This document shows positions 15,167 to 45,965 of a DNA stretch of 64,000 bases, piece after piece; within the stretch, counting starts at the first letter, position 1; each line of letters opens with the position of its first letter. Made by a program: the position numbers and the translations under genes. The notes beneath the pieces are model-generated. The model made no database searches. It saw nothing but the letters and a program-made list of their open reading frames with translations, and was not told the origin of the DNA. Source of the stretch: an uncultured Acidobacteriota bacterium. Lineage in GTDB: Bacteria; Acidobacteriota; Thermoanaerobaculia; Gp7-AA8. The stretch is taken from NCBI GenBank assembly GCA_937870635.1, contig CALMZP010000031.1, positions 62,001 through 126,000 on the forward strand, given 5' to 3'.

Positions 15167-15277
15167 GTGGAGCCGCGGGCGATCCCGCCCGCGGTGGCGA
15201 CATGCCACACGCCGGACGCGCTCCAGCATGCGTCGCGCACACGAAAGCACCGCGGGCGGGATCGCCCGCGGCTCCAC
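15167..15277. repeat. Paired GTGGAGCC-type palindromic element
   Basis: gtggagccgcgggcgatcccgcccgcgg ... cgcgggcgggatcgcccgcggctccac. Confidence 0.9.
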
Positions 15278-19327: not shown

Positions 19328-20696
19328 CTTCCAGCTTCACCTCGTACACAGTTCCTGCGGGGCTGGTCACCTTGAACCGTTCCGCGATCTCGACTCCGGC
19401 GACCCAGACGATCTCTCCATTCCAGATCAAGAGCGGAATCCGATCCCGGACCTCGGCCTCGATTTTACGATCAATCAGAAAATCCTTCAGTTTTTTGTCG
19501 TGCGGCAATCCGAGCGGTTGGAAGCGATCGCCGCGGCGGCGGTTACGGACCGTGAAGTGTGCTGCCGCGTTTTCTGGCAGCTGGAAAAGTTGTGCTGCTC
19601 GTCCGGATGGACCTTGGACCTTGGACCCTGGACCTTGACGTCCTCCCAAGGTCCAAGGTCCAGGGTCCAAGGTCCTTCGCTCGACGGAGATCGTTGCGCC
19701 GATCTCGGAGATGAAGGCGCTCGAGCCGGCGTCGAGCTCGACTTCGAACGGGATGGCCGGTTCGGGCGTCCGGCGAAGCACCAGCGCGCCGCGCTGATGG
19801 ACGAGCTCGAGCTCCCGCGTGACGCTCACGCGTCGGATATCGCCGACGGCCGACGCGAGCCGCTGCAGATCGTCCGACGAGATCTCGCGCGACCCTCCGA
19901 GTCTTCTGATGTGCCTGTTGAGGAGCGCCTGGCGCAGCCACGCATCCTGCGGCCACTGCACGAACCGCGTCTCATCCTCGGTAATGAACGTGCAGCTGCG
20001 TTCGACGGCGTCGATCGATTTCTCGACGGCGGGCCAGAACTGCTGCGCCTGCGTTGCGATCGAGGCGAGGTTCTCGACGACGGCCGGACCGAAATCGCGC
20101 AGGACGACGCGAACGCGATTGCGCAGGAACCGCGCATCGGTGTTCGTCTGGTCGGTCCGCGCCCTGACGTCGCGTGCCGCGAGGAACTCCTCGATCCCGG
20201 CGCGCGTCGCCTCGAGCAGGGGACGGATCCACCCGTCATCGCGGCGGGGGTGGATGCCGCGAAGGCCGGCCAGCCCGGTGCCGGTCAGAAGACGCATCAG
20301 GACGGTCTCGGCCTGGTCATCCTTCTGGTGGGCGGTGGCGACGTACCGCGCGCCGACTTCGCTGGCGATCGCGGCGAGTTTTTCGTGGCGAACGTCGCGA
20401 GCGGCGGCTTCGAGGCCCGACGCGCGAATCGCCTCGGGGTCGAGGGTCCCATCGGCAACGTGGATCTCGACGCCGAGGCGTTTGCAGAGATCGCGGACGA
20501 ACGCCTCGTCGCCGTCGGACTCCTCGCCGCGGAGGTGATGGTTGACGTGGCCGGCGGTCACCGTGAACCCGTCTTCCCGCAACTCGGCGAGCAGGAGGAG
20601 CAGCGCCGTCGAATCAGGGCCGCCCGAAACCGCGGCAAGAACGTGGCACGGCTCGATTCCCTGAGCCGCAAAAAAGCGCCGAACCAGATCGATCAC
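19320..20696 (-). CDS. tilS: tRNA(Ile)-lysidine synthase
   Basis: AVSGGPDSTALLLLL PP-loop; GHVNHHLRGEESDGDEAFV; RRRGDRFQPLG...KKLKDFLIDRKI C-terminal domain. Confidence 0.94.
   Translation of the reverse strand: MIDLVRRFFAAQGIEPCHVLAAVSGGPDSTALLLLLAELREDGFTVTAGHVNHHLRGEESDGDEAFVRDLCKRLGVEIHVADGTLDPEAIRASGLEAAARDVRHEKLAAIASEVGARYVATAHQKDDQAETVLMRLLTGTGLAGLRGIHPRRDDGWIRPLLEATRAGIEEFLAARDVRARTDQTNTDARFLRNRVRVVLRDFGPAVVENLASIATQAQQFWPAVEKSIDAVERSCTFITEDETRFVQWPQDAWLRQALLNRHIRRLGGSREISSDDLQRLASAVGDIRRVSVTRELELVHQRGALVLRRTPEPAIPFEVELDAGSSAFISEIGATISVERRTLDPGPWTLGGRQGPGSKVQGPSGRAAQLFQLPENAAAHFTVRNRRRGDRFQPLGLPHDKKLKDFLIDRKIEAEVRDRIPLLIWNGEIVWVAGVEIAERFKVTSPAGTVYEVKLEDA
19609..19675. repeat. Inverted pair of GGACCTT heptamer arrays inside tilS
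   Basis: ggaccttggaccttggaccctggacctt ... aaggtccaaggtccagggtccaaggtcc. Confidence 0.95.
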
Positions 20697-20773: not shown

Positions 20774-20800
20774 CGCGGGCGAGGTCGCCCGCGCTCCACC
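20774..20800 (-). repeat. GTGGAGC-type palindromic element
   Basis: cgcgggcgaggtcgcccgcgctccac. Confidence 0.85.
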
Positions 20801-23033: not shown

Positions 23034-23135
23034 TGTCATCCCGAGCGTGAGCGAGGGATCGGGGTGATGGGCGGCACGAACACCATGCCTCCTGCCGCCC
23101 AACCCCCAGGTCCCTCGCTCACGCTCGGGATGACA
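23034..23135. repeat. TCATCCCGAGCG-family inverted repeat
   Basis: tgtcatcccgagcgtgagcgaggga ... tccctcgctcacgctcgggatgaca. Confidence 0.93.
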
Positions 23136-23351: not shown

Positions 23352-23765
23352 TTATTGAACGACGATCTTGCCCTTCATCATGTTCATGCCGCAGGTGAAC
23401 TCGAGGTCGCCCGCGTTCTGAGGGGTGAATTCGATCGTCGTCACCTGGTTGACGGGGATGGGCTTCGAGATGTTCTGCGACGGAATGGTCAACACGTCGC
23501 CGCAGGTTGGTTTCTCGTCGCGGGTCACATTCAGGCGCACAGGTTTTCCGGCCTGGACGTTGAACGATGCCGGCTGATATTCGCCGCCGCTGACCTTGAG
23601 GTCGATGGTTTGAACGTCGGCGGTGGTGGTGGCCGGAGCGGGCGTGGGCTCGGTGGTCGCCGGTGTAGTTTCGGCGGCCGCGGGCGAGGTCGCCCGCGCT
23701 CCATCGGTTTCCTGATGGCACCCGATGGTCAGGAAGAGTGCTGCAACTGCAATGAGTGATTTCAA
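23352..23765 (-). CDS. cupredoxin-domain lipoprotein
   Basis: TTG start; lipoprotein signal LKSLIAVAALFLTIGC; GGEYQPASFNVQAGKPVRL...FTCGMNMMKGKIVVQ. Confidence 0.8.
   Translation of the reverse strand: MKSLIAVAALFLTIGCHQETDGARATSPAAAETTPATTEPTPAPATTTADVQTIDLKVSGGEYQPASFNVQAGKPVRLNVTRDEKPTCGDVLTIPSQNISKPIPVNQVTTIEFTPQNAGDLEFTCGMNMMKGKIVVQ
23678..23703 (-). repeat. GTGGAGC-type element in frame inside the cupredoxin lipoprotein gene
   Basis: Encodes GARATSPA. Confidence 0.88.
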
Positions 23766-26700
23766 GAGATTTCTCCTTCGATTTGTTCTTCGCCGCGGAG
23801 GCCCGAGGGTTTGAGCCGGCCGAGGCGTAAGTCTCGTTGTTTCATGATGAGAAAAATGATCGGCGTCACGAGCAGAACGTGAATCGTCGATGTGACCATC
23901 CCGCCGATGAGCGGAACCGCGATCGGCTTCATGACGTCCGAACCGGTGCCCGTCGCCCAGAGCAGCGGCAGCAGGCCGATGACGGTGGTCGCTACGGTCA
24001 TGATCTTGGGCCTCACACGAAGCAAGGCCCCTTCCACGGTGGCGTTGAAGACAGTCTCTCCCGTGAGAGGGCCCTTCATCATCTCCCGGTCGAGGGCTTC
24101 GTGAAGGTAGAGGACCATGACCACGCCTGTCTGAACGGCCACGCCGTAAAGGGCGATGAAGCCTACCCAGACCGCGACCGACCAGTTGAAGCCGTAGATC
24201 CACATCAGGTACACGCCGCCGATGAGGGCGAACGGAACCGACAGCATGACCAGCGACGCTTCCACGGCCGAGTGGAACGTGAAGTAGAGGATGACGAAAA
24301 TGATGACGAAGACGAGCGGCAGCACGATCTGCAGCCGCTGGCGGGCGTGAATCTGGTCTTCGTACTGTCCCGAGAACTGGAGTGAATAACCAGGCGGCAG
24401 CGTGAGCTGCCGATCGAGGGCGCGCCGCGCCTCGGTCACGAACGTTCCCATGTCGCGGCCGCGGACGTTGAGCTGCACCAGTGAGCGGATCTGGCCGTTC
24501 TCGGAGTTGATCATCGCCGGGCCGGGCGCGGACTCGATCTTCGCCAGCTGGCCGAGGGGAAGCTGAATGGCGGCCTCGCCGCGGGGGATCGTGATCAGAA
24601 GGTTCTGGAGAGCCGCCAGGTCGTCACGGTAATCGGCGAGGTAGCGAACCTGCACCGGATAGCGCGCGCGACCCTCGACCGTCCACGTGACATTGCTGCC
24701 GCCGATTGCCGTCTCGATTGCATCGAGCACGACACCGACCGGAATGCCCTGGCGGGCGATGGCGTCGCGATCGACCTCGATGTTCAGGTACTGGCCGCCG
24801 GTCGTGCGCTCGGTGTAGAGGTCGACCGCGCCGGGGATGGTCCGGAGGATGGATTCGGCCTTCAGCGCCAGTGTCTCGAGCGTCTTCAGATCCGATCCGT
24901 AAATCTTCACCCCCAGCGTCGTGCGAACACCGGTGTTGAGCATGTCGATGCGGTTGATGATCGGCTGCGTCCACGCGTTCGTGACGCCCGGGATCTGCAG
25001 CTTCTCGTTGAGATCCTGGATGATCGAGTCTTTCGTCGTGCCGGCCGGCCACTGGCTCTTTGGCTTCAGCTCGATGATCGTTTCGAACATCGAGATCGGC
25101 GCCGGATCCGTGGCCGTCTCGGCACGCCCGACTTTTCCAAGGACGTAAGCGACGGCCGGATGGCTGGCAATGACCTTGTCCTGCACCTGGATGATCCGCC
25201 GCGCTTCGGTGATGTTGATCGCCGGCAGCGTCACCGGCATGTACAACAGCATCCCCTCGTCCAGCGGCGGCATGAACTCCGTGCCGAGGCTCATCATCAT
25301 GGGGATGGTGATGAGGAGGGCGATGACGTTGATGGCGATCATCGTCTTCCTGTTGCGAAGCGACCAGCGCAGGAATGGCTCGTATGCACGGGCGAAGAAG
25401 CGGCTGATGGGATTCTCGCTCTCCGGGCGCATCCGTCCGCGCATGAAGAACGTCATGAGCACGGGCACGAGCGTAATTGCCAGGAGTGAGGCGCCGATCA
25501 TCGCGAACGTCTTCGTGTAGGCGAGGGGAGTGAAGAGCTTTCCTTCACGACCCGTCAGGAGAAACACCGGAAGGAACGAGGCGATCATGACCAGAAGCGA
25601 TCCGAAGATGGCCGGACCGACCTGCTGCGAGGCGCGGATGATCGTATTGACGCGCATGTCCTCGTCGGGTTTTGCGCCCGAGGCGAGCACTTTCCCGTAC
25701 GTGCCCTCCGCGAGGTGACGGTATGCGTTCTCGACCATGACGATCGAGGCGTCGACGATCTCGCCGATCGCGAGCGCCACGCCGCCAAGGGACATGATGT
25801 TGGACGTGATGCCGAAGCGGTACATCAGCACGAAACTGATGAGCGCCGACAGAGGAAGTCCGACGAGCACCGTGACGGCGGATCCGAAGTGGAAGAGGAA
25901 AACGACGACGACGAGAGAGACGATGATCCCTTCCTCGATCAGCGCTTCCTTGAGCGTGTCGACCGCTCGTTCGATGAGCTCGGAGCGGTCGTAAGCCGTC
26001 CGGACGGTGACGCCGGCCGGGAGACCACTCTTCAGTTCTTCGAGGCGCGCCTTCACGCGGTCGATGACCGCCTTTGCGTTCTCGCCGTATCGCGCCACGA
26101 TGATGCCGCCGACGGCCTCACCGTTGCCGTTCTCTTCGAGGAGACCGCGTCGGATGTCGGTGCCGAGGCTGATCGTGCCGAGGGAGGAGAGGTAGATGGG
26201 AGTGCCACCGGGAGCGGCGACGACGATCGTCTCGAGGTCGGCGACATCCTTCACGTAGCCGATGCCGCGCACGATGTACTCGCTCTGTCCGACCTGGATG
26301 AGGCGGCCGCCGACGTCGTTGTTCGATCGCCGAACGGCATCGATGACCTGGTCGAGCGAGATTCCGCGCGCCGCCATCCGGATCGGGTCGAGGTTGACCT
26401 GGTACTGCTTGACGAACCCGCCGACCGATGCCACTTCGGCCACGCCGTCGACCGACTGCAGGCCGAGCTTCAGATACCAGTCCTGAATCGATCGAAGCTG
26501 CCCGAGGTCGTGTGTCTTCGACTGCAGCGTGTACCAGAAGACGTGGCCTACGCCGGTGCCTTCGGGCCCGAGACGGGGAGTGGCGCCTTCGGGGAGGAGG
26601 CCGCTGATGTAGTTGAGGCGTTCCAAGACGCGCGTGCGAGCCCAGTAGATGTCGACGTCGTCGCGGAAGATGACGTAGACGAGTGAGAAACCGAACATCG

Positions 26701-26956
26701 ACTGCGCGCGGACCGCTTTCAGATTCGGGAGTCCCTGCAGGTTCGAGGCGAGGGGGTAGGTGATCTGATCCTCGACCAGCTGAGGTGCCCGGCCCGGCCA
26801 GTCAACGTAGACGATGACCTGGTTATCGGAGATGTCGGGAATGGCGTCGAGCGGCGTGCGCAGCGTGGCGATCGCGCCGGCGACGATGAGCACCGCGTAC
26901 GCCACGAGGACGATGAACCGGTTTCGAGCGGAGAGCTCGATGAGTTTGCGGATCAT
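23762..26956 (-). CDS. heavy-metal efflux RND permease (CusA/CzcA family)
   Basis: RNRFIVLVAYAVLIVAG, PLDAIPDISDNQVIVYVDWPGRAPQLVEDQITYPL; start trimmed to MIRKLIEL. Confidence 0.95.
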   Translation of the reverse strand: MIRKLIELSARNRFIVLVAYAVLIVAGAIATLRTPLDAIPDISDNQVIVYVDWPGRAPQLVEDQITYPLASNLQGLPNLKAVRAQSMFGFSLVYVIFRDDVDIYWARTRVLERLNYISGLLPEGATPRLGPEGTGVGHVFWYTLQSKTHDLGQLRSIQDWYLKLGLQSVDGVAEVASVGGFVKQYQVNLDPIRMAARGISLDQVIDAVRRSNNDVGGRLIQVGQSEYIVRGIGYVKDVADLETIVVAAPGGTPIYLSSLGTISLGTDIRRGLLEENGNGEAVGGIIVARYGENAKAVIDRVKARLEELKSGLPAGVTVRTAYDRSELIERAVDTLKEALIEEGIIVSLVVVVFLFHFGSAVTVLVGLPLSALISFVLMYRFGITSNIMSLGGVALAIGEIVDASIVMVENAYRHLAEGTYGKVLASGAKPDEDMRVNTIIRASQQVGPAIFGSLLVMIASFLPVFLLTGREGKLFTPLAYTKTFAMIGASLLAITLVPVLMTFFMRGRMRPESENPISRFFARAYEPFLRWSLRNRKTMIAINVIALLITIPMMMSLGTEFMPPLDEGMLLYMPVTLPAINITEARRIIQVQDKVIASHPAVAYVLGKVGRAETATDPAPISMFETIIELKPKSQWPAGTTKDSIIQDLNEKLQIPGVTNAWTQPIINRIDMLNTGVRTTLGVKIYGSDLKTLETLALKAESILRTIPGAVDLYTERTTGGQYLNIEVDRDAIARQGIPVGVVLDAIETAIGGSNVTWTVEGRARYPVQVRYLADYRDDLAALQNLLITIPRGEAAIQLPLGQLAKIESAPGPAMINSENGQIRSLVQLNVRGRDMGTFVTEARRALDRQLTLPPGYSLQFSGQYEDQIHARQRLQIVLPLVFVIIFVILYFTFHSAVEASLVMLSVPFALIGGVYLMWIYGFNWSVAVWVGFIALYGVAVQTGVVMVLYLHEALDREMMKGPLTGETVFNATVEGALLRVRPKIMTVATTVIGLLPLLWATGTGSDVMKPIAVPLIGGMVTSTIHVLLVTPIIFLIMKQRDLRLGRLKPSGLRGEEQIEGEIS

Positions 26957-26957
26957 G

Positions 26958-28280
26958 TCAGTGTCCCCGGTGCGGATCGGCGGTAGTGGTCGCGGTCGCG
27001 GGCGAGGTCGCCCGCGCTCCACCGGACGTCGCACCCCTCAGCTGTGCTTCTGAATCGAGGAGGAAGCCGCCTTCGGCGACGACCTTCTCGCCTCCCGTCA
27101 GGCCGGCCTGGATCACGATCGATTCGCCATGGCGCTCGCCTACCGTGACTTCGCGAGGCTGATACGTGCCGGGCGCGGTCTCGATCCAGACAAACTGCCG
27201 CTGCCCGCGGTCGACCACGACGGATTTCGGGACCATGATGTGCGCCGGCGCGGCGGGACCGACGATCCTGGCGCTGACGTACATGTCCGGCTTGAGGAGC
27301 ATGTTCGGATTCGCAAGCTCGACTCGGACGCGGGCCGTGCGGGTCTCCCCGGCGAGGAACGGTTGGATGAACGACACGACGCCGGGGAATGCGATGCCCG
27401 GAACGGCCGGCGTCGTGATCGTCACCTGCTGGCCGATCGTGATGCCGGGAAGCTGCTGTTCGTAGACATCGGCTTCGACCCATACGACGGAAAGGTCGAC
27501 GATCTCGAGGAGCGGCTGTCCCTGCGTGACGTACTGCTGCGGGACGACGAGTTTCTGCGTGACCACGCCCGCTACGGGCGACGTCACCGTCGTCGTGTAG
27601 AGAGGCTTGCCGCCCTGCTCGAGCTGACGGATCTGCGCGTTGGTCATGCCAAAGAGCAGGAGGCGCCGGCGCGTGGATTCGACGAGATCGTCGGAGGCAC
27701 TGCGTGCGTCGGCGAAGCCGGCTTTGCGCATGCGCTCGCGGTTTGCCAGGGACAGCAGATACTCCTGCTGCGTCGAGAACAGATCGGGCGAATAGATCGC
27801 GGCCACGGCCTGGCCGCGCCGCACGGTGTCGCCGGTGAAATTGACGTAGAGGCGTTCGATGCGGCCCGCCGCGTAGGCGGTCACCTGCGCCACGCGCCGT
27901 TCATCGATGGTGACCCGGCCGGTCGTCACCAGCTCGCCGGTGTGCGTTGACGGCGACACGAGAATGGTCTTCACGTTCGCCGTGACCCGCTGCTCGGGCG
28001 AGAGCGAGATCGCGGCGACCGACGGATCGAGTGACCCCGATCCCGCAAGTTGCGCCGCAGAGGGATCGACCGCCGTTGCGGGCGGGCGTTTGACGAGTGC
28101 CATGCCGCAGATCGGGCAGCTGCCCGGCTGGTCGGAGGTGACCGTCGGATGCATCGGACAGAAATAGACGTCGCCGTGAGCGTGATCGTCCGATGCGGAC
28201 CGGTAGTAGAAGATTCCTGCGGCGGCGATGGCCACGATAGCGATCGCCGCGACTGCGATTTTCATTCTGGGATTCATCAC
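26958..28280 (-). CDS. efflux RND periplasmic adaptor (CusB family) with heavy-metal-binding domain
   Basis: YFCPMHPTVTSDQPGSCPICGMALVKR; membrane-fusion protein core. Confidence 0.93.
   Translation of the reverse strand: MMNPRMKIAVAAIAIVAIAAAGIFYYRSASDDHAHGDVYFCPMHPTVTSDQPGSCPICGMALVKRPPATAVDPSAAQLAGSGSLDPSVAAISLSPEQRVTANVKTILVSPSTHTGELVTTGRVTIDERRVAQVTAYAAGRIERLYVNFTGDTVRRGQAVAAIYSPDLFSTQQEYLLSLANRERMRKAGFADARSASDDLVESTRRRLLLFGMTNAQIRQLEQGGKPLYTTTVTSPVAGVVTQKLVVPQQYVTQGQPLLEIVDLSVVWVEADVYEQQLPGITIGQQVTITTPAVPGIAFPGVVSFIQPFLAGETRTARVRVELANPNMLLKPDMYVSARIVGPAAPAHIMVPKSVVVDRGQRQFVWIETAPGTYQPREVTVGERHGESIVIQAGLTGGEKVVAEGGFLLDSEAQLRGATSGGARATSPATATTTADPHRGH
26996..27022 (-). repeat. GTGGAGC-type element in frame inside the CusB-like gene
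   Basis: Encodes GGARATSPA near the C-terminus. Confidence 0.88.
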
Positions 28281-29572
28281 ATGCCCCCTGTCCGGGCGGC
28301 CGAAGAGGAACGCGGTGCGGATCCTCCGGCGGCACTCGAGCCGGCACCCTTGAGGATCGCCTCGTAATCGACGATCGCCTTGATGTGCTCGGCGAGGTAC
28401 TGGTAGTAGTCGAGCTGCAGGCGGAGATAGGTCGTCTCCGCGTTGAGAATCGAATCGAACATCGTCTTGCCTGTCTGGTACGACGACAGTGTCGACTCGA
28501 ACGCCAGCCGGGCCTGCGGCACGAGCACTTCTTCGTGCAGGCCGAGCTGTTCATTGGCCTGCTCGTGCGCGGCGGCCGCTGCGCCGAGACCGGCCGCGAG
28601 CTGGCGGCGGAGCTCATCGAGGCGACGCGCGGTCACCTCACGGTCGGCGATCGCGGAGCGAATCTGCGGTTCGATGATGGAGTTGCGCCGGAACGGAATC
28701 TCGACGGTGGCCACGACGCTGAACATGTCGGTCTGCGTGCGGCGATATCCATAGGATGCCTCGACCCCGATGTCGGGTCGTCGCTGAAGACGAGCTAGCT
28801 GAACGAGCGCGTTCTGGCGTTCGATATCGAGCTCGAGAGCTTTGATTGCCGGATGGCTCTCCGGCACTGCGCCCACCACATCGATCTCGCGGCGCTCGGT
28901 CGTATGCGGAAGGTGCAGACGCGGCACCTCCGTTGCCGTGGACAGACCGACAAGCGGGAGGAGGCGCGCCAGGGCGATGTTGCGCGCGCCGCGAAGCGTC
29001 AGGATCTGGTGCTCCAGATTGCTCTTCTCCAGCTGGGCCCGGATCACTTCGGCCTGAATCGCATTCCCGACTTCGTAACGCACGCGCGCCGAGTCGATGA
29101 TTGCGTCGATCAGGCTTCGCACTTCTTCCGCAGCCGAGATCTGGCTGTCGGCGGCGGCGGCGTCGTACCACGCCATGAGGGTGTCGCGTTCGATCTCCGC
29201 GCGCGCCGCGATGATCTGCTGCTCGAGCGCCCGCGCTTCAAGGTCAGCGACGGACCTTCGCGTGCGGCGCTTTTCGCCGCTCGTAAACGTCTGCTGGGCG
29301 CCGAGCATGTACATCGTCATCATCTCGTCGTCGGAGAGGTCGACCTGCTTGTTCTGCACGCCGGCCATCGCCATCGGGTTCGGCAGCGCGCCAGCCGGCC
29401 CAATCCGTTCGCGAGCCGCCGAGACTTCGGTCTGAAGGCGGAGGATGGTGGGGTTGTTGTCGAGCGCCGCTGCGACGACGGACTGCGGGTCAGCCCAGTC
29501 GACGGCATAGGCCGGCGCGGTCACCGCGCACGCGGCAACGAAGAGCAAAGCTCCGGGGAATCTCATGAACAC
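28277..29572 (-). CDS. TolC/CusC-family outer-membrane efflux protein
   Basis: Signal peptide; ALDNNPTILRLQTEV..., ARVRYEVGNAIQAEVIRAQLEKSNLEHQILTL; coupled to the adaptor gene. Confidence 0.88.
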   Translation of the reverse strand: MFMRFPGALLFVAACAVTAPAYAVDWADPQSVVAAALDNNPTILRLQTEVSAARERIGPAGALPNPMAMAGVQNKQVDLSDDEMMTMYMLGAQQTFTSGEKRRTRRSVADLEARALEQQIIAARAEIERDTLMAWYDAAAADSQISAAEEVRSLIDAIIDSARVRYEVGNAIQAEVIRAQLEKSNLEHQILTLRGARNIALARLLPLVGLSTATEVPRLHLPHTTERREIDVVGAVPESHPAIKALELDIERQNALVQLARLQRRPDIGVEASYGYRRTQTDMFSVVATVEIPFRRNSIIEPQIRSAIADREVTARRLDELRRQLAAGLGAAAAAHEQANEQLGLHEEVLVPQARLAFESTLSSYQTGKTMFDSILNAETTYLRLQLDYYQYLAEHIKAIVDYEAILKGAGSSAAGGSAPRSSSAARTGGM

Positions 29573-29611
29573 TCCTTGGACGTCTGAAGGAAAGGGCGGG
29601 GAGCCCGGTGA

Positions 29612-29950
29612 TCAGATCAGGAGCGTGGCAATCAGGGCGAGGCGGACGCGGGTGGGGGGAGGGGCTGATTCTTCGGCGGTGAAGGGGAGCACTGCGGCGT
29701 CGGCTACGTCGTCCGAAGCGATCTCGAGGTCGGCCGCGACGACAGTCGGGGCCGGAACGGGGTCAGCGCTCTTCGGCTGCCGCGCGGGTGACGGTGCCGC
29801 GCAGATCGTCGGCGCGCAGCAGTTCATCGGCGCGGCGAACCGGTCGTCTCCGCCGGCGCAGCAGGGCGAGGTCGCGCAGGCGCTGGCAATGAGCGCAGCC
29901 GGCGGCGCAAACACCGCAAGCAGCAACGCGAACGCAAGAGCGCGCTTCAT
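29612..29950 (-). CDS. small secreted Cys-rich protein
   Basis: MKRALAFALLLAVFAPPAALIASACATSPCCAGGDDRFAAPMNCCAPTICAAP. Confidence 0.5.
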   Translation of the reverse strand: MKRALAFALLLAVFAPPAALIASACATSPCCAGGDDRFAAPMNCCAPTICAAPSPARQPKSADPVPAPTVVAADLEIASDDVADAAVLPFTAEESAPPPTRVRLALIATLLI

Positions 29951-29990
29951 CAGTGATGCAGATGTCGAAAGCGGCCTCATTTGTTCCCGG

Positions 29991-30030
29991 TACGTCATGG
30001 TGTCAGGTCTGGATATAGGACGTTTCTTCC
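29991..30030. repeat. Partial copy of the arm of the 53.4-kb long palindrome
   Basis: tacgtcatggtgtcaggtctggatatag... shares acgtcatggtgtcaggtctgga with 53382-53434. Confidence 0.75.
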
Positions 30031-30076
30031 AGAAGAGATGTGTCGGTTGACACAGGATCTGCCCGTGGCGGGATAG

Positions 30077-30098
30077 GACGCGGGCGAGGTCGCCCGCC
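30077..30098. repeat. GTGGAGC-type palindromic element, core only
   Basis: gacgcgggcgaggtcgcccgcc. Confidence 0.75.
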
Positions 30099-30110
30099 GA
30101 ACGGCGTCAC

Positions 30111-30398
30111 CTATCCGCACCAGACCGCGGTCACCGCATCGGGGTGGTCGAGCACATAGCCATCCTCGGCGGGGTCGTACTCGATCACCGCCCCGTCGAG
30201 TCGCGACGCGGCCATGTTGTCGAGGGCCACATGGACCGCGCCGACGTCCACCACCTGGTCACCGTCGTTCGGAGCGTCGGCGTAGCTCAGCCGGTAGCCG
30301 CTGCCGCCGCATCCGGTCGTGAAAGCGATGCGCAGAATCCGGCCATCGAGATTGGACTGCAGATGCTGCGCGGCTTCCGGGGAAAGGGACAGGTTCAT
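30111..30398 (-). CDS. HesB/IscA-like iron-sulfur protein
   Basis: LSPEAAQHLQ...LRIAFTTGCGGSGYRLSYADAP. Confidence 0.72.
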   Translation of the reverse strand: MNLSLSPEAAQHLQSNLDGRILRIAFTTGCGGSGYRLSYADAPNDGDQVVDVGAVHVALDNMAASRLDGAVIEYDPAEDGYVLDHPDAVTAVWCG

Positions 30399-30910
30399 GC
30401 CGTTGGAGAACCATGCACAATCCGGTCCTCGGCGTCTTCACGCTTGAACCAGTCCCCATCCAGCTTGATCAACTCCAGCTCGCGCTCCAGCTCGACGACA
30501 TGGGCGCGCTTCGAAGACATGAGATAGACGAGGAAGTGACGGTCACGGGGGCCGGCCGCGCGGCTCCACTCGCCAAGTTTTTTCTCCATCGTCCGCTCGC
30601 GGGCGATGAGGAACTCAGTGGTCTCGCGGTACGACATGCTGCCTTCGAGGATGTCCTGGAAAAGGAGATCGCCGCCTAGGGTCACGCGCACGCGCGACTC
30701 ACCGATGGCGGCAATCTTCTTCTCGATGAGGTCACGCGTTCCGCGCTCGTCCTCCGCGAACTGCTTGAACATCGTCGCGACCATGGGATTCGGCAGATTC
30801 TCAGCGAGTTTCTGAAAGGTCTTGTACGCCTCGATGGTGTATTGCATGAGGAGGCCGAGGTGCTGCTGGCTCAGGGTGGCATTCGGTGTTTCGACTGTTG
30901 TCATCTTCAA
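30395..30910 (-). CDS. ferritin-like four-helix protein, putative
   Basis: YTIEAYKTFQKLAENLPNPMVATMFKQFAEDERGTRDLIEKKI; ExxxxE/DExR pattern. Confidence 0.5.
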   Translation of the reverse strand: MKMTTVETPNATLSQQHLGLLMQYTIEAYKTFQKLAENLPNPMVATMFKQFAEDERGTRDLIEKKIAAIGESRVRVTLGGDLLFQDILEGSMSYRETTEFLIARERTMEKKLGEWSRAAGPRDRHFLVYLMSSKRAHVVELERELELIKLDGDWFKREDAEDRIVHGSPTA

Positions 30911-30929
30911 GTCACTTTCGGGTCGCGTT

Positions 30930-31208
30930 CTACTCGATCTTCGCTACTTTCACAACCACATCCCCCACCAGTTTCGCCTGACAGGAGAGGCGGTAGGGGG
31001 GCTCGAGCTCCTTGTAGGTTTCGTCCGGGGTAGGCGGCGTCAGGTTCTGCCAGCCCTGGCAGACCTCGATCCTGCAGGTCCCGCACGCGCCGTCACCTCC
31101 GCAAACCTGGCTGACCTTGACGCCGAGGGCTCCGGCGATGGAAAGCACCGTTTTGCCGGCGGGGAACTCACCGCTTTTCGACTCGTCTTCGAAGGTCACC
31201 CGGGGCAT
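30930..31208 (-). CDS. 2Fe-2S ferredoxin
   Basis: VCGGDGACGTCRIEVCQG ... RLSCQAKLVGDVVVKV. Confidence 0.92.
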   Translation of the reverse strand: MPRVTFEDESKSGEFPAGKTVLSIAGALGVKVSQVCGGDGACGTCRIEVCQGWQNLTPPTPDETYKELEPPYRLSCQAKLVGDVVVKVAKIE

Positions 31209-31227
31209 GCGCGCGGCGATTCTATTC

Positions 31228-31332
31228 GAGGGTCAGAGCTTCGGTTCTCGGTTTCTCGACAAGCGGGAGAACGGATGTCGTTTCCCAGATTCTCCGCTTG
31301 TAGAGAAACCGAGAACCGAAGCTCTGACCCTC
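31228..31332. repeat. Long palindrome between lipA and ferredoxin
   Basis: gagggtcagagcttcggttctcggtttctc ... gagaaaccgagaaccgaagctctgaccctc. Confidence 0.95.
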
Positions 31333-32215
31333 AACGGAGTGCGCGATGGGCCATATAGGAGCTGCGGACGAGCGGCGCGGACTCGACGTGGTGAAAGCCG
31401 AGCGCTCTGGCTTCCCGGCCCAGCTCGGCGAACTCCTCAGGGGTGTAGTAGCGGCGCACCGGGTGATGATTCCCGGTGGGTGCGAGGTACTGGCCGAGCG
31501 TGAAGATGTCGACCCCACACTCCCGCAGGTCCCTCGCCGCCGCGATCACTTCATCCTCGGTTTCTCCGAGGCCGAGCATGATGCTCGATTTGGTGAGCAT
31601 GCCGTCGAACCGTTCCTCGCTTGCCCAGCGGAGGATGTCGAGCGACTGGCGGTACTTCGCCACCGGCCTCACCTGCGGATAGAGACGCGGAACCGTCTCG
31701 ACGTTGTGCGCGAGTACTTCGGGGCGCGACGCGATCACGGTGCGGAGGGCCTCACGGCTTCCTTCGAAGTCGGAGACCAGCACCTCGACGGCCGCGCCGG
31801 TGCGCGAACGCACCGCTTCGACCGTGCGCGCGACGTGGTCCGCGCCGCCATCGGGCATGTCGTCGCGATTGACCATCGTGATCACGGCGTGCTGAACCTG
31901 CATCTTCTCGACGGCCTCGGCCACACGACGCGGCTCATCGGGGTCGGCCAGCAGCGGTTTGCCTTTGCCGACCGCGCAGAACGTGCAGCGCCGCGTGCAG
32001 ATCTCGCCGAGGATCATGAAGGTGGCCGTGCCTGCGTTCCAGCATTCGAAGATGTTGGGGCAGCGCGCTTCCTGACAGACGGTGTTGAGGGCGAGATCGT
32101 TCATCAGCTTCGAGACGGGAAGCTGATCGAGGTCGCCGGGGACGCGGATCTTCAGCCAGTCCGGACGGTGTCCGGCCCGGCGGTTGATTGGCTTGCTGTC
32201 AGGTTGGGAGCTCAT
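31331..32215 (-). CDS. lipA: lipoyl synthase
   Basis: C-x3-C-x5-C EARCPNIFECWNAGTATFMILGEICTRRCTFCAV. Confidence 0.96.
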   Translation of the reverse strand: MSSQPDSKPINRRAGHRPDWLKIRVPGDLDQLPVSKLMNDLALNTVCQEARCPNIFECWNAGTATFMILGEICTRRCTFCAVGKGKPLLADPDEPRRVAEAVEKMQVQHAVITMVNRDDMPDGGADHVARTVEAVRSRTGAAVEVLVSDFEGSREALRTVIASRPEVLAHNVETVPRLYPQVRPVAKYRQSLDILRWASEERFDGMLTKSSIMLGLGETEDEVIAAARDLRECGVDIFTLGQYLAPTGNHHPVRRYYTPEEFAELGREARALGFHHVESAPLVRSSYMAHRALR

Positions 32216-33285
32216 GCGATGCGGGACTCCAGGAGCTCGAGCGCCTCCCGATCGTCGGTCCACCTGATCTTTTCATACGCCTCGGCAAAGGTGAACCAAC
32301 CGTATTCATCATGCTCGCCGCGGTCCATCTGGATGGGCATGCGCGAGTCGATGGCCACGGAAAAGGCCACCTCGCTGGCGATGATCGGACCGGGGTGTTT
32401 CGCCGAGAGGAACTGCGATTCGATCATGAATGACTGTTTGAGGCCGACCTCGCTCGGTGTGACCGGGATGCCGGTCTCTTCGATCATCTCGCGTTTCGCA
32501 GTCTGCGCCGGCGTCTCGCCTTCCTCGATCGAGCCGGTGATGGGCTGCCAGAAGTTCCCACGTTCGGCTCTGCGATGGAGGAGAAGAACACGGTCGCGAT
32601 CGTGAACGACGACTTTGACGAGGCGGATGGTCTCTTCGCGCGTAACGAGATCGCGTTCGAAGATCTCCGAAAACTTTCTGGCGAGAACGGCGCGAACCTC
32701 GTCGATGGGGACGCTGCGCCCGATCTGCTTCTCGATCGAGGTCACGCCGGTTCCCTGAAGGCCGCACGGGGTGATCAGCCGGAAGTGATCGAGATTCGTG
32801 TTCACGTTGAGCGCCCAGCCGTGCGAGGTCACCCATCGCGCGATGCGGACGCCAATCGCCGCGATTTTCTCGTTGCCGACCCAAATGCCGCGCCTGCCGT
32901 CGAGACGCGCGGCGGTGATCCCGTACTCGGCGACGGTCTGGATCAGAATCTCCTCGAGCATCGTCACGTACCTGCGGACGTCGCGGTTGCCTTCGCCGAG
33001 GTGGACGATGGGATAGCCGACGATCTGGCCGGGGCCGTGGTAGGTGATGTCGCCGCCGCGAGTCGTCTCGAAGAAGCGGACCCGGTTCTGGCGGAGAACG
33101 TCGGGGGAGGCGAGGAGATTCTTCGTATCGCCGCCGCGCCCGAGGGTGATCACAGGAGGATGCTCGAGGAGCAGGAGCTGGTCCTGGATCTCGTCGCGCT
33201 GCCGCATCTCGGCGAGCTTCTGCTGCAGCTTCATCCCGTTCTCGTAGGTCACGGTATGAAGCTGCCGGAGGTCACAGGTACGCAT
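32212..33285 (-). CDS. lipB: fusion: octanoyltransferase LipB - Nudix hydrolase
   Basis: LEHPPVITLGRGG, TRGGDITYHGPGQIVGYPIV, GVRIARWVTSHGWALNV (LipB); GSIEEGETPAQTAKREMIEETGI (Nudix box GX5EX7REUXEEXGU). Confidence 0.92.
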   Translation of the reverse strand: MRTCDLRQLHTVTYENGMKLQQKLAEMRQRDEIQDQLLLLEHPPVITLGRGGDTKNLLASPDVLRQNRVRFFETTRGGDITYHGPGQIVGYPIVHLGEGNRDVRRYVTMLEEILIQTVAEYGITAARLDGRRGIWVGNEKIAAIGVRIARWVTSHGWALNVNTNLDHFRLITPCGLQGTGVTSIEKQIGRSVPIDEVRAVLARKFSEIFERDLVTREETIRLVKVVVHDRDRVLLLHRRAERGNFWQPITGSIEEGETPAQTAKREMIEETGIPVTPSEVGLKQSFMIESQFLSAKHPGPIIASEVAFSVAIDSRMPIQMDRGEHDEYGWFTFAEAYEKIRWTDDREALELLESRIA

Positions 33286-33297
33286 GCTGGGTTGTGA

Positions 33298-33409
33298 GAG
33301 GGTCACGTCTGCACTTCGCACTTTCTCCACGAACGGTAGATCTGATGGTACGCCTCAGGCGGTCGATCTACCGTTCGTGGAGAAAGTGCGAAGTGCAGAC
33401 GTGACCCTC
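33298..33409. repeat. Long palindrome with 45-bp arms
   Basis: gagggtcacgtctgcacttcgcactttctccacgaacggtagatc and its reverse complement. Confidence 0.97.
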
Positions 33410-33412
33410 CTG

Positions 33413-34771
33413 TTACATCGTGAACTGGCCTGCCTCGAGCGACTCCTTCACCCTGGCCATGAACTGGTCGGCGACGGCGCCGTCGATCAGGCGGTGGTCG
33501 AAGGTGAGAGAGATGTAGGCCATCTTGCGGATGGCGATCGAGTCGCCCTCTTCCGACTCGACGACGACCGGGCGCTTCTGCACGCCGCCGACGCCGAGAA
33601 TCGCCACCTGGGGCTGGTTGATGATGGGGAGGCCGAACAGACCGCCGAACACGCCCGGATTCGTGATGGTGAACGTGCCGCCCTGGACGTCATCGGGGGA
33701 GAGTTTCTTCGTCCGCGCTCGCTCGCCGAGGTCGTTGATGCCGCGGGCGAGTCCCAGGATGTTCAGTTCATCGGCGTTCTTGAGGACGGGGACGATGAGT
33801 CCCCATTCGAGCGCGACGGCGATGCCGATGTTGAGGTCGCGGTGATAGATCACGCTGTTCTCGTCCATCGATGCATTGAGGATCGGGAACTCCTTGAGTC
33901 CCTCGATCACCGCCTGGACGATGAACGGCATGTACGTCAGCTTCACGCCGCGCTCCGCGTAGGCGTCCTTCTGCCCACGGCGCAGGCGATCGATCGCGGT
34001 GAAGTCGACCTCGAAGACGGTCTGCACATGCGCGGAAGTCTGCTTCGACAGCACCATGTGCTGGGCGATCTTCTTGCGCATGACCGAGAGAGGCTCGACC
34101 TTCGTGTTCTGGCCGGAGGGGAACTGCATGGCCGGACGCGGGGCGGGAGGTGCCGGCTTCGAGGGGGCCGCAGTTTTCGCTTCCGCGGGCGAGGTCGCCC
34201 GCGCTCCACCTTCCGGCTGCTGCAGAAAATCGAGGATGTCGTTCTTCGTGACGCGGCCGGAGACGCCCGACCCCTGGATCAGCTGGATGTCGATGTTGTT
34301 CTCTTTGGCGATCTTGCGGACGAGAGGGGAGGATTTGCTGCGGCGCCGTTCATCGAGCGAGGCGACGTTCTTGTCGTCGTTCTGTGGAGCCGGGGCGGCC
34401 TCGGCTTGTGGGGCGCTCGGGACGCTCTGTGGAGCGTGGGCGACCTCGCCCGGCGGGGGTTCCTGATTCTGCTCCACCTTTGCTTCGGGCGCAGGCGAAG
34501 GCGCGGGCGAGGTCGCCCGCGCTCCACTTTCTCCCTCGCCGCCGATGCGGGCCACGATCGAGTTGACGGCCACGGTCTGGCCTTCCTGAGCCAGGATCTC
34601 CGTCAGCGTTCCCGCCGCGGGGGACGGGATCTCGGCGTCGACCTTGTCGGTCGAGATCTCGAGCAGCGGCTCGTCACGGTCCACCTTGTCGCCGACTTTT
34701 TTCAGCCATTTGGAAACCGTTCCCTCGGCGATCGACTCGCCCATCTGCGGCATCAGTACATCGGTGGCCAT
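33413..34771 (-). CDS. 2-oxoacid dehydrogenase E2 (dihydrolipoamide acyltransferase)
   Basis: Lipoyl domain (EISTDKVDAEIPSPAAG), PSBD (SSPLVRKIAKENNIDIQLIQGSGVSGRVTKNDI), catalytic DHRLIDGA. Confidence 0.95.
   Translation of the reverse strand: MATDVLMPQMGESIAEGTVSKWLKKVGDKVDRDEPLLEISTDKVDAEIPSPAAGTLTEILAQEGQTVAVNSIVARIGGEGESGARATSPAPSPAPEAKVEQNQEPPPGEVAHAPQSVPSAPQAEAAPAPQNDDKNVASLDERRRSKSSPLVRKIAKENNIDIQLIQGSGVSGRVTKNDILDFLQQPEGGARATSPAEAKTAAPSKPAPPAPRPAMQFPSGQNTKVEPLSVMRKKIAQHMVLSKQTSAHVQTVFEVDFTAIDRLRRGQKDAYAERGVKLTYMPFIVQAVIEGLKEFPILNASMDENSVIYHRDLNIGIAVALEWGLIVPVLKNADELNILGLARGINDLGERARTKKLSPDDVQGGTFTITNPGVFGGLFGLPIINQPQVAILGVGGVQKRPVVVESEEGDSIAIRKMAYISLTFDHRLIDGAVADQFMARVKESLEAGQFTM
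34183..34209 (-). repeat. GTGGAGC-type element in frame in E2 (PSBD-catalytic linker)
   Basis: Encodes GGARATSPAEA. Confidence 0.88.
34429..34455 (+). repeat. Diverged GTGGAGC-type element in E2 linker, opposite orientation
   Basis: gtggagcgtgggcgacctcgcccggcgg; encodes PPGEVAHAPQ on the minus strand. Confidence 0.7.
34501..34527 (-). repeat. GTGGAGC-type element in frame in E2 (lipoyl-PSBD linker)
   Basis: Encodes SGARATSPAP. Confidence 0.88.
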
Positions 34772-36800: not shown

Positions 36801-36840
36801 GAGTGGGCTTTTCAGCGTGGTAGAGCGAGTACGAACTGCC

Positions 36841-36939
36841 GTCATCCCGAGCGTAGCGAGGGACCTGGGTGGAAGGGCGGCTCGAAGATCGAGCGGCGCG
36901 CCCCCGTTCCCCCAGGTCCCTCGCTACGCTCGGGATGAC
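36841..36939. repeat. TCATCCCGAGCG-family inverted repeat
   Basis: gtcatcccgagcgtagcgagggacctgg ... ccaggtccctcgctacgctcgggatgac. Confidence 0.93.
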
Positions 36940-36954
36940 AGCGTCGCGGGTGTG

Positions 36955-38436: not shown

Positions 38437-41400
38437 CTACTGTGAGGGCACGTACGTCGAGTCGTTGGTGCGGTTGTCGATGACCGATCCGTACGCCGAA
38501 ACGCGGCCGGATCCGGAGATCACCTTGACCGCGATGCGGGCGTTGTAGACGGCGCTCCCGACACCGAAGCCGGACAGAGGGAACTGGAGGAAGCCGTTCG
38601 CGGCCAAATCGATTTTCAGTTTCGGCGTCACTTTCGAATCGGGCAGCACCAGCGATACTTCGACGCTGGCCGCGTTGCCGCTCGTCTCGACGAGGCCGAT
38701 GTTCGTCCGGTACTCGGACGAGTTTTCGAGCTGCAGCAGGTGAGCTGATTTCTCTCCAATGCCGATCGACTCTTCCGGCGTCACGCCGGGAGCGAAGAGC
38801 CCGAAGGTGCCATTGTCGGTCTCCGCGTAAGTCCGCGCCGTCGCAACGAGGCTGCTCGAAGATGTGGTCGATATGAGCAGTGATCCGCCGGCATTCGATT
38901 CATTGATGCCGAAGAAATTGTGGAGCACGTTGTCGAACGCCAGTACCTGGCCGCCCGCGAGGGTGACTTCCTTCGTCATTGCGCCCGCTGTGTTCCCCTG
39001 GGGGAAGTAGGTGATCTTCGCGGTCGTGGTGGCCGTGCCGGCATTGAACACCCGCACGTCGCTGCGCCACTTGGCGAGTCCATCGATGTATGCGACGCCC
39101 GGCACGACGTAGCGAGTGCCGTGCACCGCCGATTTCACGACGGGCTGTACCAGAAGCGGGTCGTTCGTCTTGTTGTCCACCATCGACGCGTAGGCGGTGA
39201 CCTTTCCGGTAGCCGAAGTCACTTCGACTTCGATTCGTCCGTCATCAAGCTGCAATCCTGCGTTCGCCAGGAACGCATTGAGCTGCTTGTGCTCGAACGC
39301 CTTCAGCGTCTCGGGAACCTCGGCGAGCGGGCGTCCTGCCGCATCGAACACGCGGATCATCACGACAGCAGGCTGGCCCGATCCTTCAACGAGGCCGAGG
39401 TTGGTGCGGTAAAGAGTGTTCTGGGCGATCTGCTGCATCGACAGCACCGACGGGACGGAACTCGGGGACTTCCCGATGAATCTCGAGAAAGGCACGGCCG
39501 GAATGTACTGGCCCAGCGTTCCAGATTCAGTCACGTTGTAAGTGCGGCTGGAGGCGATCGTGGCGGTCGCAAGCGATGAAGTCAGCGACGACGATGTGGT
39601 GGAAGTCGTGAGCGGGCGAACCTCCAGGACGCCGAGGGCAGCGCCGCCCGGCCCTGTCCCGAAGAAGCTCGCCAGGATGTCATTCAGGGCGGCCGTTCCG
39701 CCCGGCTGGATCTGAATCGTGGTGGAGCTGCCCGATACAGTGCCGTCGCTGCCCGTCGGTGTGAAGTTCAATTGATAGGTCACCGACTGCGTCGAGGTAT
39801 TCGCAAGTCGGACGTCCGACTGAAACAGCGAGTTGTTGGCACCCGGCGAATGGCCCACGGCGGGAATGATGAGCGCCTCCGCGGGGGGTGTATTCTTGCC
39901 TGTCGGCGAAACAGGTGTCACGAGGCTGATCGACACCGGCACATTCGTCGTCTGCGCTCCCCCCTTCGCGCCCTTGCCGGCCGCTCCATAGGTGAGCAGA
40001 AGCGTACCGGTGTTCGCACCGAGTGAGAGAGTGCCCGGCTCCGCGGTGATCGTGAATGTCATTCCATCGGGTCCGAGGACGCCGCTCTCGGGCGAGACAT
40101 GGAGCCACGAACGATCCATGCGCGCGGTGAAGGGGACGGGAGTCGCGGAACCGCGGACGAACATCGTCTGGACGACGCTCTGCTGCACACCGATCTCCGC
40201 GGTGCCGGGCAGCCGCTGTTCGATGGCGTTTACCGGGACGATGTGCACGCCGACGACATCTGAGAACCGGCCGCGATCATCGCTGCACGCGGAGATGCCG
40301 CGGACTCGATAGAACTTCTGAATCGGCTCGGTGGCCGGGTATACGAACGTCCTGTATGTCGCATCCAGCACCAGGTGCGTCGCGGCAGCGCTGAAGTCGC
40401 TGCGGGAATCTGATTCCTGCAGCTCGTAGCCTGTGACGGCAGCGATCGGTGCCCATCGTACGCCGTAAGGCGTATCGGCGAGGGCTTGGCCGATGACGCT
40501 GATCGCCGGACGTTCCGGCGCGTGGCACACCGCAGCCGGCGCCATCACGTCGAAGACCCCTGCGCCGGATCGAACGGGCGGGCACAGATCGAACGTCGCC
40601 TCGACGTACCACTCCACGCGTCCGGTCGGAAGCGTTGCGACGACTTCTGTCCGGGTGGGATTCGCGATGAGCACAGGCCGGTCATTACCGAGGACCGCCC
40701 ATACGCGATAAGCACTCGCGCCGGCAACGGCGGTCCACGAAAGTTGCACGGGATTGGTGACGAGCGCGCGCTCGGGCGGCGCCTGCAGAACAGGCGGCCG
40801 CGCATCGCATGAAGGAGGCAGTTCGACTGAGAACGTCCTGTGATTCGATTCGACGGGGCTGCAACCGCCGCGGAAGGCGATTACCCACCACTCGATCGTC
40901 GCCCCGGCGGGCATGTGGCGGGTCAATGCCGTCTCCGCGGTCGTTTCGCCGACGGGCGCCGGCTCACCGGTCGCGGTCTTCGCGACCACGACGTACTTCA
41001 CCGCGCCTGTCACCGGACTCCATGACAGTTCAACGGGCGACTTCATGTCCTGCGCGCCGTCGGGCGGCGTGATCAACTCCGGTTTTTCATCGCGGCAATT
41101 CGTCGATTCGGGAATCGTGAACCTGAAGCGGGCCGAGTTCGTCGAGGGACACGCCTTGAACACCGCTTCCACGAACCACGTCACCCGGGAGGGCGGAATC
41201 GCGCGCGCGAGCGAGGTTTCACGCGTTTCACCGATGAGGATGAAGTCCGTGATCTTCCCTTCGCTCTCGAACGACGCATAAACGCGGTACCCGGCCGCCT
41301 CGGACACTTCACTCCAGAGGAACGTGATCGCCGAAGAGAGTCCGGTGGCGCCGTCCACGGGAGTGATCAGAGAAGGCGCGTCCGTGCTGCAACGCGGTTC

Positions 41401-44400
41401 GGTTTGCGCGATGCGGAAGAATCCACGGGTTGAAAGCAGCGGACGGCAGCCGGCGAACACCGCTTCGACGAACCATGCGTACACCCCCGGATCGCCAGTC
41501 ATCGTTACGGCCGTTTCCTTCGTCTCGGCGAAGTCTTCGGGTGCAGAACCGTTGAACGAGCGCCAGACGCGGTAGCCGATCGCGCCGGGAGCCGGCGACC
41601 ACCGCAGCTCGACGGATGGATTCACGTCAACCGGAGCCGATTCGGAACCAACAGGGGAAACGAGCGCGGGCGGCCGGTTCGATCCGCACGTGTCCGCCGC
41701 CTGCACGGTGAATGCGCCGTCGGGAGAGATGATCGAGCGGCAGTCCGGACCGAAGAGAGCTTCGACGCTCCATTTCACGGCGCCGCTCGTGATAGCGGCA
41801 GTTGCCGTGGTGGACGTCGATTTTGCAACGACGGAAGGCGTCGCGCCATCGATCGACGCCCATACGCGATAGTCGGTGGCCCCGCTGATACCACTCCACG
41901 AAAACGTCACCGGGCTCGTGACGATCGCATTCGCAGCGGGTGCGTTGAGCGTGATTGAACCTGCGGGGCAAGTCTTCGCTTCGATGAGGACGAATGAAGA
42001 GACGGACGATCGCGCCGGGTCGCAGCCAAGGAAGAGGGCTTCGACCTGCCAAGCCACCTTCGCCGGGGCGTTCAGGATTTGCGTGTGCGTCGTACCAGTC
42101 GTCTTCGCCGCGGCTTCGAAAGCGCTGCCGTCGATCGAGAGATAGAGGATGTACGCAACAGCTCCCTTCGCCGCGTTCCAGGTGAACGTGACCGGGGAGA
42201 GCACGGCGCTCGCACCATTGGCCGGGCTGATCAGTGTCGGCGCCGTCGTCGAACAGGTGGTGCCTGCCGAAACGGTGAATGTTCTGCGCGCGGAGAACGT
42301 CGATGCGCACCCCTCGAAGAGCGCTTCGACCTGCCACACCACCGAGCTGCCACTTGCGAACGTCGCTTCATGACGGGTAGCCGTCGTGGTCGTCAGGACC
42401 GCGGTACTTCCACCGTTGACGGATGCCAGCACCCGGTATCCACTTGCCCCGCTCACCAGACTCCATGAGAAGGTCACCGGCGAATTGAGGCCCGTGGCTC
42501 CGTCGGGCGGAATCTCCAGCGAAGGCGCCGGCGGATTCGAGGGACAGAGTGTGGACTTGGCCGTGCTGAACCGGAAGCTGGCCGATACGGTTGCGGGACA
42601 GTCGGCAAAGCTCGTCAGCACCGACCACGAGATCGCTCCCTGCGGGACCTCGATCTTGACCGTCGTGTTCGTCGTGCTGGCAACTTTCGCCGGCGGCGCG
42701 CCGTCGATCGACAACAGAAGCGTGTAGCCGATCGCGCCCGGAACCGCTCTCCACTCGAAGACGACGATTGTGCCGAGACCTGTCGCTCCGTCCGCGGGCG
42801 AGACGAGAACCGCCATCGCGGTCGGGCAGCTCGTGGCGGCCACGACCGAGAACTTCGACGGCGATGAGACGGTCGACCTGCAGGCGGGCCCGAAGTTGCT
42901 GCGGACTGTCCAGACGTACTCTCCGGCCGAAAGACTCGCGCTGGCGTTCGTCTCACTCGTCGACGCCGCGATCGAGAATGTTGCACCACCGTCTTTCGAG
43001 ACCAGAACGTCATAGCTCACGCTGCCGCTCACCGCTGTCCATGAGAATGCGATGGGCCGTGTTCCATCGAAGGTGGCTCCCGCGGCGGGACCGAGAACGG
43101 TCGCGATGCCGGTCGGGCACGGCGCCGCAATTTCCAGGCTGATCGTGCTCGAACCGGAGCAGCGGTTCGCGTCGGTGGCGGTGATGATGAATTTGAACGA
43201 GCCGGCGGTCTTCGGAGTGCCGGAGATCGTGCCGTCGGTTGCGAGCAACAGACCGTCGGGAAGAACGGTGCCGCCGTCGAGGGCGAAGGTATGAGGCGCG
43301 GCGCCGCCGCTGGCCGTGAGGGCCTGCTTGTAACCGACGCCGGCGGTACCGGCCGGGAGAGTGAGGGGGCCGACGGTGATCGTGGGGCAGCGGGGCGGTG
43401 CGATGTCGAGCGTGATCGTGCTCGAACCGGAGCAGCGGTTCGCGTCGGTGGCGGTGACGATGAATTTGAACGAGCCGGCGGTCTTCGGAGTGCCGGAGAT
43501 GGTGCCGTCGGTTGCGAGCAACAGACCGTCGGGAAGAACGGTGCCGCCGTCGAGAGCGAATGTATGAGGGGCGGCGCCGCCGCTGGCGGCGAGGGCCTGC
43601 TTGTAACCGACACCGACGGTGCCGCCGGGGAGAGCCGGCGGCCCGACCGTGATGGCGGGACAGATGTCGATCCGGATGGTGCTCGAACCGGAGCAGGCGG
43701 TGTTGGTGTCCGTGGCTGTGACGATGAAACTGAACGAGCCGGCAGTCTTCGGTGTGCCGGAGATCGTGCCGTCGGTCGACAGAAGAAGACCGTCGGGAAG
43801 CACGGTGCCGCCGCCGAGGGCGAACGTATGAGGCCCGGCGCTGCCGCTGGCCGAGAGTGCCTCCTTGTAACTGACGCCGACGGTGCCGCGGGGGAGAGCC
43901 GGCGGCCCGACGGTGATGGCCGGGCAGATGTCGAGGGTGATCGTGCTCGAACCAAAGCAGCCGTTCGCGTCGGTGGCGGTGATGATGAATTTGAACGAGC
44001 CGGCGGTTCTCGGAGTGCCGGAGATCGTGCCGTCGGTCGCGAGCAACAGACCGTCGGGAAGCACGGTGCCGCCGCCGAGGGCGAATGTATGAGGGGCGGC
44101 GCCGCCGCTGGCGGCGAGGGCCTGCTTGTAGGCAACACCGACGGTGCCGCCGGGGAGAGCCGGCGGCCCGACCGTGATCGCCGGGCACGCCGTGAAGGTA
44201 AAAGTGGCGGAGTCCTGCGGCGGGCACCTCAGATTGATGAAGTTTGTCCGGACCAGCCATGAAAACTTCCCGACGCCCAGTTTTTCAACGTGCGAGGTGG
44301 AGGTCGTGTTGAATGTAGTGGTCCTGCCGCCGTCCGGCGTGAGCAGCAGGTCATAACTTGCCGCATCCGTCATGGCTGCCCATGAAAATGTGATGGCGCC

Positions 44401-45864: not shown

Positions 45865-45965
45865 TGTCATCCGAGCGTGAGCGAGGGACCTGGGGGCCGG
45901 GTGGCTCGAAGATCGTGCCTCGTGCCCCCCATCCCCCAGGTCCCTCGCTCACGCTCGGGATGACA
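45865..45965. repeat. TCATCCCGAGCG-family inverted repeat
   Basis: tgtcatccgagcgtgagcgagggacctggggg ... cccccaggtccctcgctcacgctcgggatgaca. Confidence 0.92.

Follow-up and report, generated by a model that had tools for sequence, protein, structure and literature searches.

REPs were named, and have been studied, as extragenic elements, and a RAYT is a REP-associated tyrosine transposase, a HUH/Y1 relative of the IS200/IS605 transposases. In the layout described for them, two inverted REPs enclose the RAYT gene, and GTGG starts occur among the REPs of Pseudomonas (PMC2817692). Some GTAG REPs lie inside ORFs, most of them in Opitutus terrae, often in replication or repair genes and in some cases in genes of tRNA synthetases; for CGTC repeats, including the Rickettsia palindromic elements (RPEs), no dedicated transposase is known (PMC3733652). 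In this study, we examined a palindrome found in a stretch of 64,000 nucleotides of an uncultured Acidobacteriota bacterium (the window), which a sequence-only reading had described as inserted in frame in protein genes.

The unit, GTGGAGCGCGGGCGACCTCGCCCGCG, is 26-27 nt long, within the 20-40 nt of RAYT-associated REPs, and mostly has A or G just 5' of it. It is composed of GT, the head GGAG and an 8-bp stem with the loop ACCT, and terminates in CGCG. When folded as single-stranded DNA, it formed the 8-bp stem with the 4-nt loop and left AGTGGAG unpaired (z -3.8 for the DNA hairpin). Alignment of the copies showed sharp edges, with conservation dropping off abruptly at both ends, and most copies were preceded by an RGT triplet (AGT or GGT). 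None of the six reading frames of the unit contains a stop codon. Allowing up to two mismatches, 384 copies were spread over many contigs of the genome (179 forward and 205 reverse), as expected of a high-copy RAYT-associated REP, whereas the reversed pattern gave 0 copies in the same genome. Close pairs were inverted (+/-) in 21 of 34 cases. The unit was absent from the genomes of 60 relatives, from every other genome of a 297-genome sample of the phylum and from the viral contigs searched. The copies in the window and their host genes are as follows.

6986-7011, plus strand: intergenic REP, 1 mismatch.
9919-9944, plus strand: intergenic REP just after the gene at 8242-9918, 0 mismatches.
20774-20799, minus strand: intergenic REP, 0 mismatches.
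23352-23765, minus strand: host gene of a cupredoxin lipoprotein (Cupredoxin_1, E 3.9e-17).
23679-23704, minus strand: REP with GARATSPA in frame, TDGARATSPAAA at 23702, 0 mismatches over 24 nt, between lipobox and cupredoxin domain.
26958-28265, minus strand: host gene of a CusB-like efflux adaptor (HlyD_D23, E 5.6e-73; HMBD).
26997-27022, minus strand: REP with GARATSPA in frame, SGGARATSPATA at 27020, 0 mismatches, in the C-terminal tail of the adaptor.
30079-30097, minus strand: intergenic truncated REP without head, recognised by sequence.
33413-34771, minus strand: host gene of a 2-oxoacid dehydrogenase E2 acyltransferase (Biotin_lipoyl, E3_binding, 2-oxoacid_dh), containing three REP copies and with orthologues in relatives.
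34184-34209, minus strand: REP with GARATSPA in frame, EGGARATSPAEA at 34207, 0 mismatches, in the E2 linker between the E3-binding and catalytic domains.
34429-34454, plus strand: diverged REP, reversed relative to the E2 gene, reading PPGEVAHAPQ, GTGGAGCGTGGGCGACCTCGCCCGGC, 3 mismatches.
34502-34527, minus strand: REP with GARATSPA in frame, ESGARATSPAPS at 34525, 0 mismatches, in the linker that follows the lipoyl domain of E2.
55337-55362, plus strand: REP just after the gene at 55071-55337, 0 mismatches.
1561-1588, plus strand: second REP subtype, GTGGAGCCGCGGGCGATCCCGCCCGCGG, intergenic.
15167-15277, no single strand: second REP subtype, GTGGAGCCGCGGGCGATCCCGCCCGCGG, as an intergenic inverted pair.

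The four forward copies in genes were identical to each other over 24 nt. As had been claimed, GARATSPA stands in frame in the cupredoxin lipoprotein, in the CusB-like adaptor and twice in E2, all four copies being located on the minus strand, and the diverged reverse copy in E2 proved real; the identities given to the three hosts were upheld by their Pfam domains. Two further claims held in the window but not genome-wide. In the window, the Pfam boundaries place all in-gene copies in linkers or tails, but elsewhere in the genome they also occupy loops of folded enzymes; likewise, the single reading frame is that of the four window copies, whereas about a quarter of the internal copies in the genome use other frames. 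Ala/Pro compositional bias as the source of the peptide was ruled out by the identity of the DNA, by the contrast of 384 copies with 0 for the reversed control and by the result of 0/60 in the relatives.

The second subtype was also seen at 1608-1635 and 7019-7046 of the window and was counted 36 times in the 841 kb sample described below, 9 of these copies being genic and mostly reading GAAGDPAR. Both subtypes are clustered (GAPGDPARGARATPPVERGRPRPR) in a fused PTS protein, EIIA-HPr-EI-EIIC-EIIB (L085:2379-6722 = C32:22379-26722), exactly within the interdomain linker of EI and EIIC. Several other repeats were observed in the window: a perfect inverted repeat of 53 bp around a 3-nt loop at 53382-53490 (AACGTCATGGTGTCAGGTCTGG...), with a related arm at 29992-30042; a separate palindromic family around CCGAGCGTGAGCGAGGGACCTGGG at 23034-23135, 36838-36942 and 45871-45965; long near-perfect inverted repeats at 33298-33409 and 31228-31332, both beginning GAGGGTCA (45 bp at 100% and 39 bp at 97%); short tandem repeats arranged as inverted pairs (TGGATTTT, AAGGATG, TGGACCT) at 1054-1127, 11014-11089 and 19606-19678, some of whose units occur many times over in the sampled genome; and four 270-bp direct repeats, 77-92% alike, at 43120-44187 in the gene at 38437-44541.

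Three Y1_Tnp genes were found in the genome. One of them (L103:6620-7162, minus strand, contig C139), encoding a protein of 180 aa, passed the curated RAYT model NF047646 with 104 bits against a cut-off of 80, and has homologues of up to about 50% identity in named genomes (WOR-3, Acidobacteria and others). Its best solved relative was the TnpA-REP structure 4er8, at a weak E of 8e-4, with the HVH motif and the Tyr region aligned. Two inverted REP copies bracket this gene, at L103 6635 (-) and 7216 (+), and the former lies in frame within it and forms the C-terminus of the RAYT itself (GARATSPAPSRR / LSGARATSPAPSRR). The other two Y1 proteins (C170 and C157) scored below the RAYT cut-off, and no REP copies were found immediately adjacent to them. 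Judged from this arrangement, the RAYT is probably what spreads the hairpin. With a GGAG head that is homologous to the GTAG found in REPs of relatives, and with a curated RAYT between its copies, the unit is classed as a REP of the RAYT-associated type and not as an RPE.

Copies in genes were surveyed in 841 kb from nine contigs (19% of the genome), comprising stretches around the window and copy-rich contigs, a choice that may bias the copy density and affects the registers less. Genes were called with a home-made trained Markov model with repeats masked, and the genic fractions depend on this caller. With up to three mismatches, 91 copies were present, 44 within called genes (two of them doubtful) and 47 between genes; the densities were 5.9 (genic) and 47.8 (intergenic) per 100 kb, an 8-fold difference. 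A place between genes is a usual but not a defining trait of RAYT-associated REPs, since members inside ORFs are listed in PMC3733652. Mismatch counts were alike in the genic and the intergenic copies, so it was the DNA rather than the peptide that got copied. According to Pfam, the host proteins include GluRS, PheT, Rho, DnaX, UvrD, PyrD, Ddl, aconitase, a GDSL lipase and an M16 peptidase; LeuRS, identified by sequence and orthologues, is the host of two copies. Essential enzymes are among the hosts of in-frame copies. The tail of dnaX (L096:2618-4219) holds three intact reversed copies in about 130 bp, reading GEVARAP three times, and the neighbouring genes of GluRS, the peptidase and PyrD (C53 13085-16940) carry one copy each.

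Compared with three members of its family and with the solved PyrD 1f76, PyrD is longer by exactly nine residues around SAARATSPA, in agreement with the clean insertion of about 8-10 residues predicted from the sequence alone. Aconitase is longer at the element by 8 residues and GluRS by 7, each against a single nearest relative; these were dropped as exact insert lengths because the loops vary among relatives, and PyrD is the one source of an unambiguous length. A reading of clean insertion in E2 and LeuRS was likewise dropped, since their linkers and loops are too variable between relatives. GARATSPA was present at the host sites in no orthologue examined, including the E2 orthologues in the 60 relatives; orthologues sharing the peptide at the same sites, named beforehand as the finding that would speak against an insertion, were therefore not encountered. 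A search for empty sites within the genome by joined flanks gave none that were informative, the matches being mostly the element's own sites. A DNA uptake sequence, a short non-mobile motif arising by substitution, was ruled out by the 26-nt palindrome, the extra PyrD residues and the linked transposase.

The reading register was strongly biased. Among 38 internal copies, 18 read GARATSPA, 11 read GEVARAP in the reversed orientation, and 9 were distributed over the remaining four registers; the two preferred registers accounted for 29/38 (p=7e-8), or 19/27 when one copy per gene was counted (p=9e-5). Two copies in C170:24890-27889 were left out of this test, as the gene call seems to have been extended falsely over its first 400 residues. 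Most of the rare registers are rich in Arg, the avoided VERGRPRP and RGRGRPRS having three or four. At protein ends, disfavoured registers made up 6/13 copies versus 5/29 elsewhere, which is a trend only (p=0.07). We infer that the bias arose by purifying selection on the peptide, which is our preferred reading; the inserted peptide itself probably has no function.

RAYT genes in other genera of the family are flanked by homologous hairpins of their own, with compensatory changes in the stems: GTGGGGCGCCGGCGCCCTCGCCGGCG in G007, GTGTAGGACAGGCGCCCTCGCCTGTC in G011, and likewise for further RAYTs of the family. In an alignment of seven hairpins, 92.7% of the stem cells pair, 12 cells are changed on both sides, and the stem covariation is 0.58 compared with at most 0.11 for slid structures. 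At the aligned position of the head, the window genome has GGAG, G007 has GGGG and G011 has GTAG. G007 has 32 copies, of which 30 were seen and 20 (67%) are genic; 16 of these 20 use the registers preferred in the window genome (11 GAPAPSPA and 5 AGEGAGAP), and Arg-rich registers are rare there as well. G011 has 170 copies; 10 of the 44 sites seen are genic, 9/10 in the VGQAPSPV register, which again matches that of the window genome. The G011 unit shares both site and register with the unit of the window genome in E2 and in aconitase, and in PheT it has the same site in a different register. Since each copy is close to the consensus of its own genome, we interpret the shared sites as permissive ones that were probably hit independently, although an older copy may have been converted instead. 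Separately, LeuRS of G006 (L112) and a PD-(D/E)XK protein of G008 (L293) carry the palindrome-like peptides LTPSLSPQAGRGW and LAPLAGRGWRVAPGEG at or near corresponding sites, which suggests that a further repeat family gets into genes too.

Taken together, we consider it highly probable that the palindrome is a REP spread by the RAYT, that frame-keeping insertions survive, and that selection purges the Arg-rich registers. The RAYT would recognise the head and hairpin on single-stranded DNA and paste copies elsewhere without respecting gene borders. Insertions into conserved genes would persist only with the frame intact, most survivors being in the two registers whose peptides (GARATSPA, GEVARAP) are small, nearly uncharged and linker-like, and purifying selection would clear most Arg-rich registers. 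The unusual tolerance in genes is attributed to the six stop-free frames and to a net insert that can be a multiple of three, as with the nine residues of PyrD. It is also conceivable, although we would not bet on it, that the bias was produced by the same RAYT and REP in another way, the register being set at insertion by a short target (RGT, for example) in a fixed codon phase, with little selection on the peptide. AGT or GGT does precede most copies, and one forward register is common to four differing hairpins, including the second subtype (GAAGDPAR) and that of G011. However, RGT may be just part of the element, and the preferred reversed register, whose codon phase differs when counted from the head, gives a low-charge peptide as well; furthermore, Arg-rich registers are scarce in both the window genome and G007.

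Very improbable, in our judgement, is a lineage-independent relative of the RPEs whose mechanism of spread is left unspecified. RPEs and intragenic REPs are reported to have entered many unrelated proteins in frame, among them tRNA synthetases and proteins of DNA repair (PMC3733652), and in-frame entry was seen here as well (44/91 copies in called genes and the clean PyrD insert). The unit, however, ends in CGCG instead of CGTC, has a GGAG head and is linked to a RAYT gene, whereas a CGTC end without a known associated transposase marks RPEs. The initial likening to RPEs is accordingly kept for a mobile palindrome in frame in genes and given up for its kind. We give slightly less credence still to a binding or uptake site or a terminator that arose in place by mutation or selection without any insertion. 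The density 8 times higher between genes, the two window copies directly 3' of genes and the inverted pairs, which could serve as terminators, would suit such a motif, but the sharp-edged 26-nt identity, the extra PyrD residues and the copies flanking the RAYT fit insertion and not drift, and any such role would be secondary. Returning to the RAYT-spread REP, we put forward as a rather unlikely extension that RAYT and REP in this bacterial family have adapted to living in coding DNA. If so, stop-free, low-charge readings would be kept in the preferred registers while the stems diverge by compensatory changes, and the element would be a recurrent source of in-frame linker peptides, hitting the same protein sites repeatedly in different genera.

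As to known systems, the kind of element is not new, since GTAG REPs in ORFs and in-frame RPEs have been published (PMC3733652). Within the limits of a search of the open-access literature, we regard as new the high genic fraction, the register common to genera with diverged REPs and the copy inside the RAYT. In three genera whose REPs differ, core enzymes contain them in frame with one preferred register, which amounts to a natural experiment on the 9-residue insertions that proteins tolerate and makes target choice by the RAYT versus selection directly testable. The palindromes inside protein-coding genes of the mitochondria of Nematomorpha, which are animals, are perfect inverted repeats that reach 284 bp (PMC6649704) and are another kind of element. 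The REPs of Pseudomonas fluorescens, such as GTGGGAGGGGGCTTGCCCCCGAT, share the GTGG start, a hairpin of similar size and the link to a RAYT, but differ in stem and loop and are treated as extragenic (PMC2817692). Closest are the GTAG-superfamily REPs and REPINs, with their hairpin of 20-40 nt, unpaired G-rich head, more than 100 copies and frequent inverted pairs (PMC2817692, PMC3733652), a RAYT gene between inverted copies and some copies in ORFs. In contrast to them, the head here is GGAG (GT GGAG) rather than GTAG, about half of the sampled copies are genic (in G007, 67% of those seen), three genera with differing REPs have one peptide register in common, and one copy lies in frame within the RAYT gene. 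The RPEs of Rickettsia, in the account given of them in PMC3733652, are likewise palindromes in frame in ORFs of functionally unrelated, likely functional proteins, but they belong to another lineage, have a CGTC end and no known transposase; the coding palindromes described here are tied to a known one.
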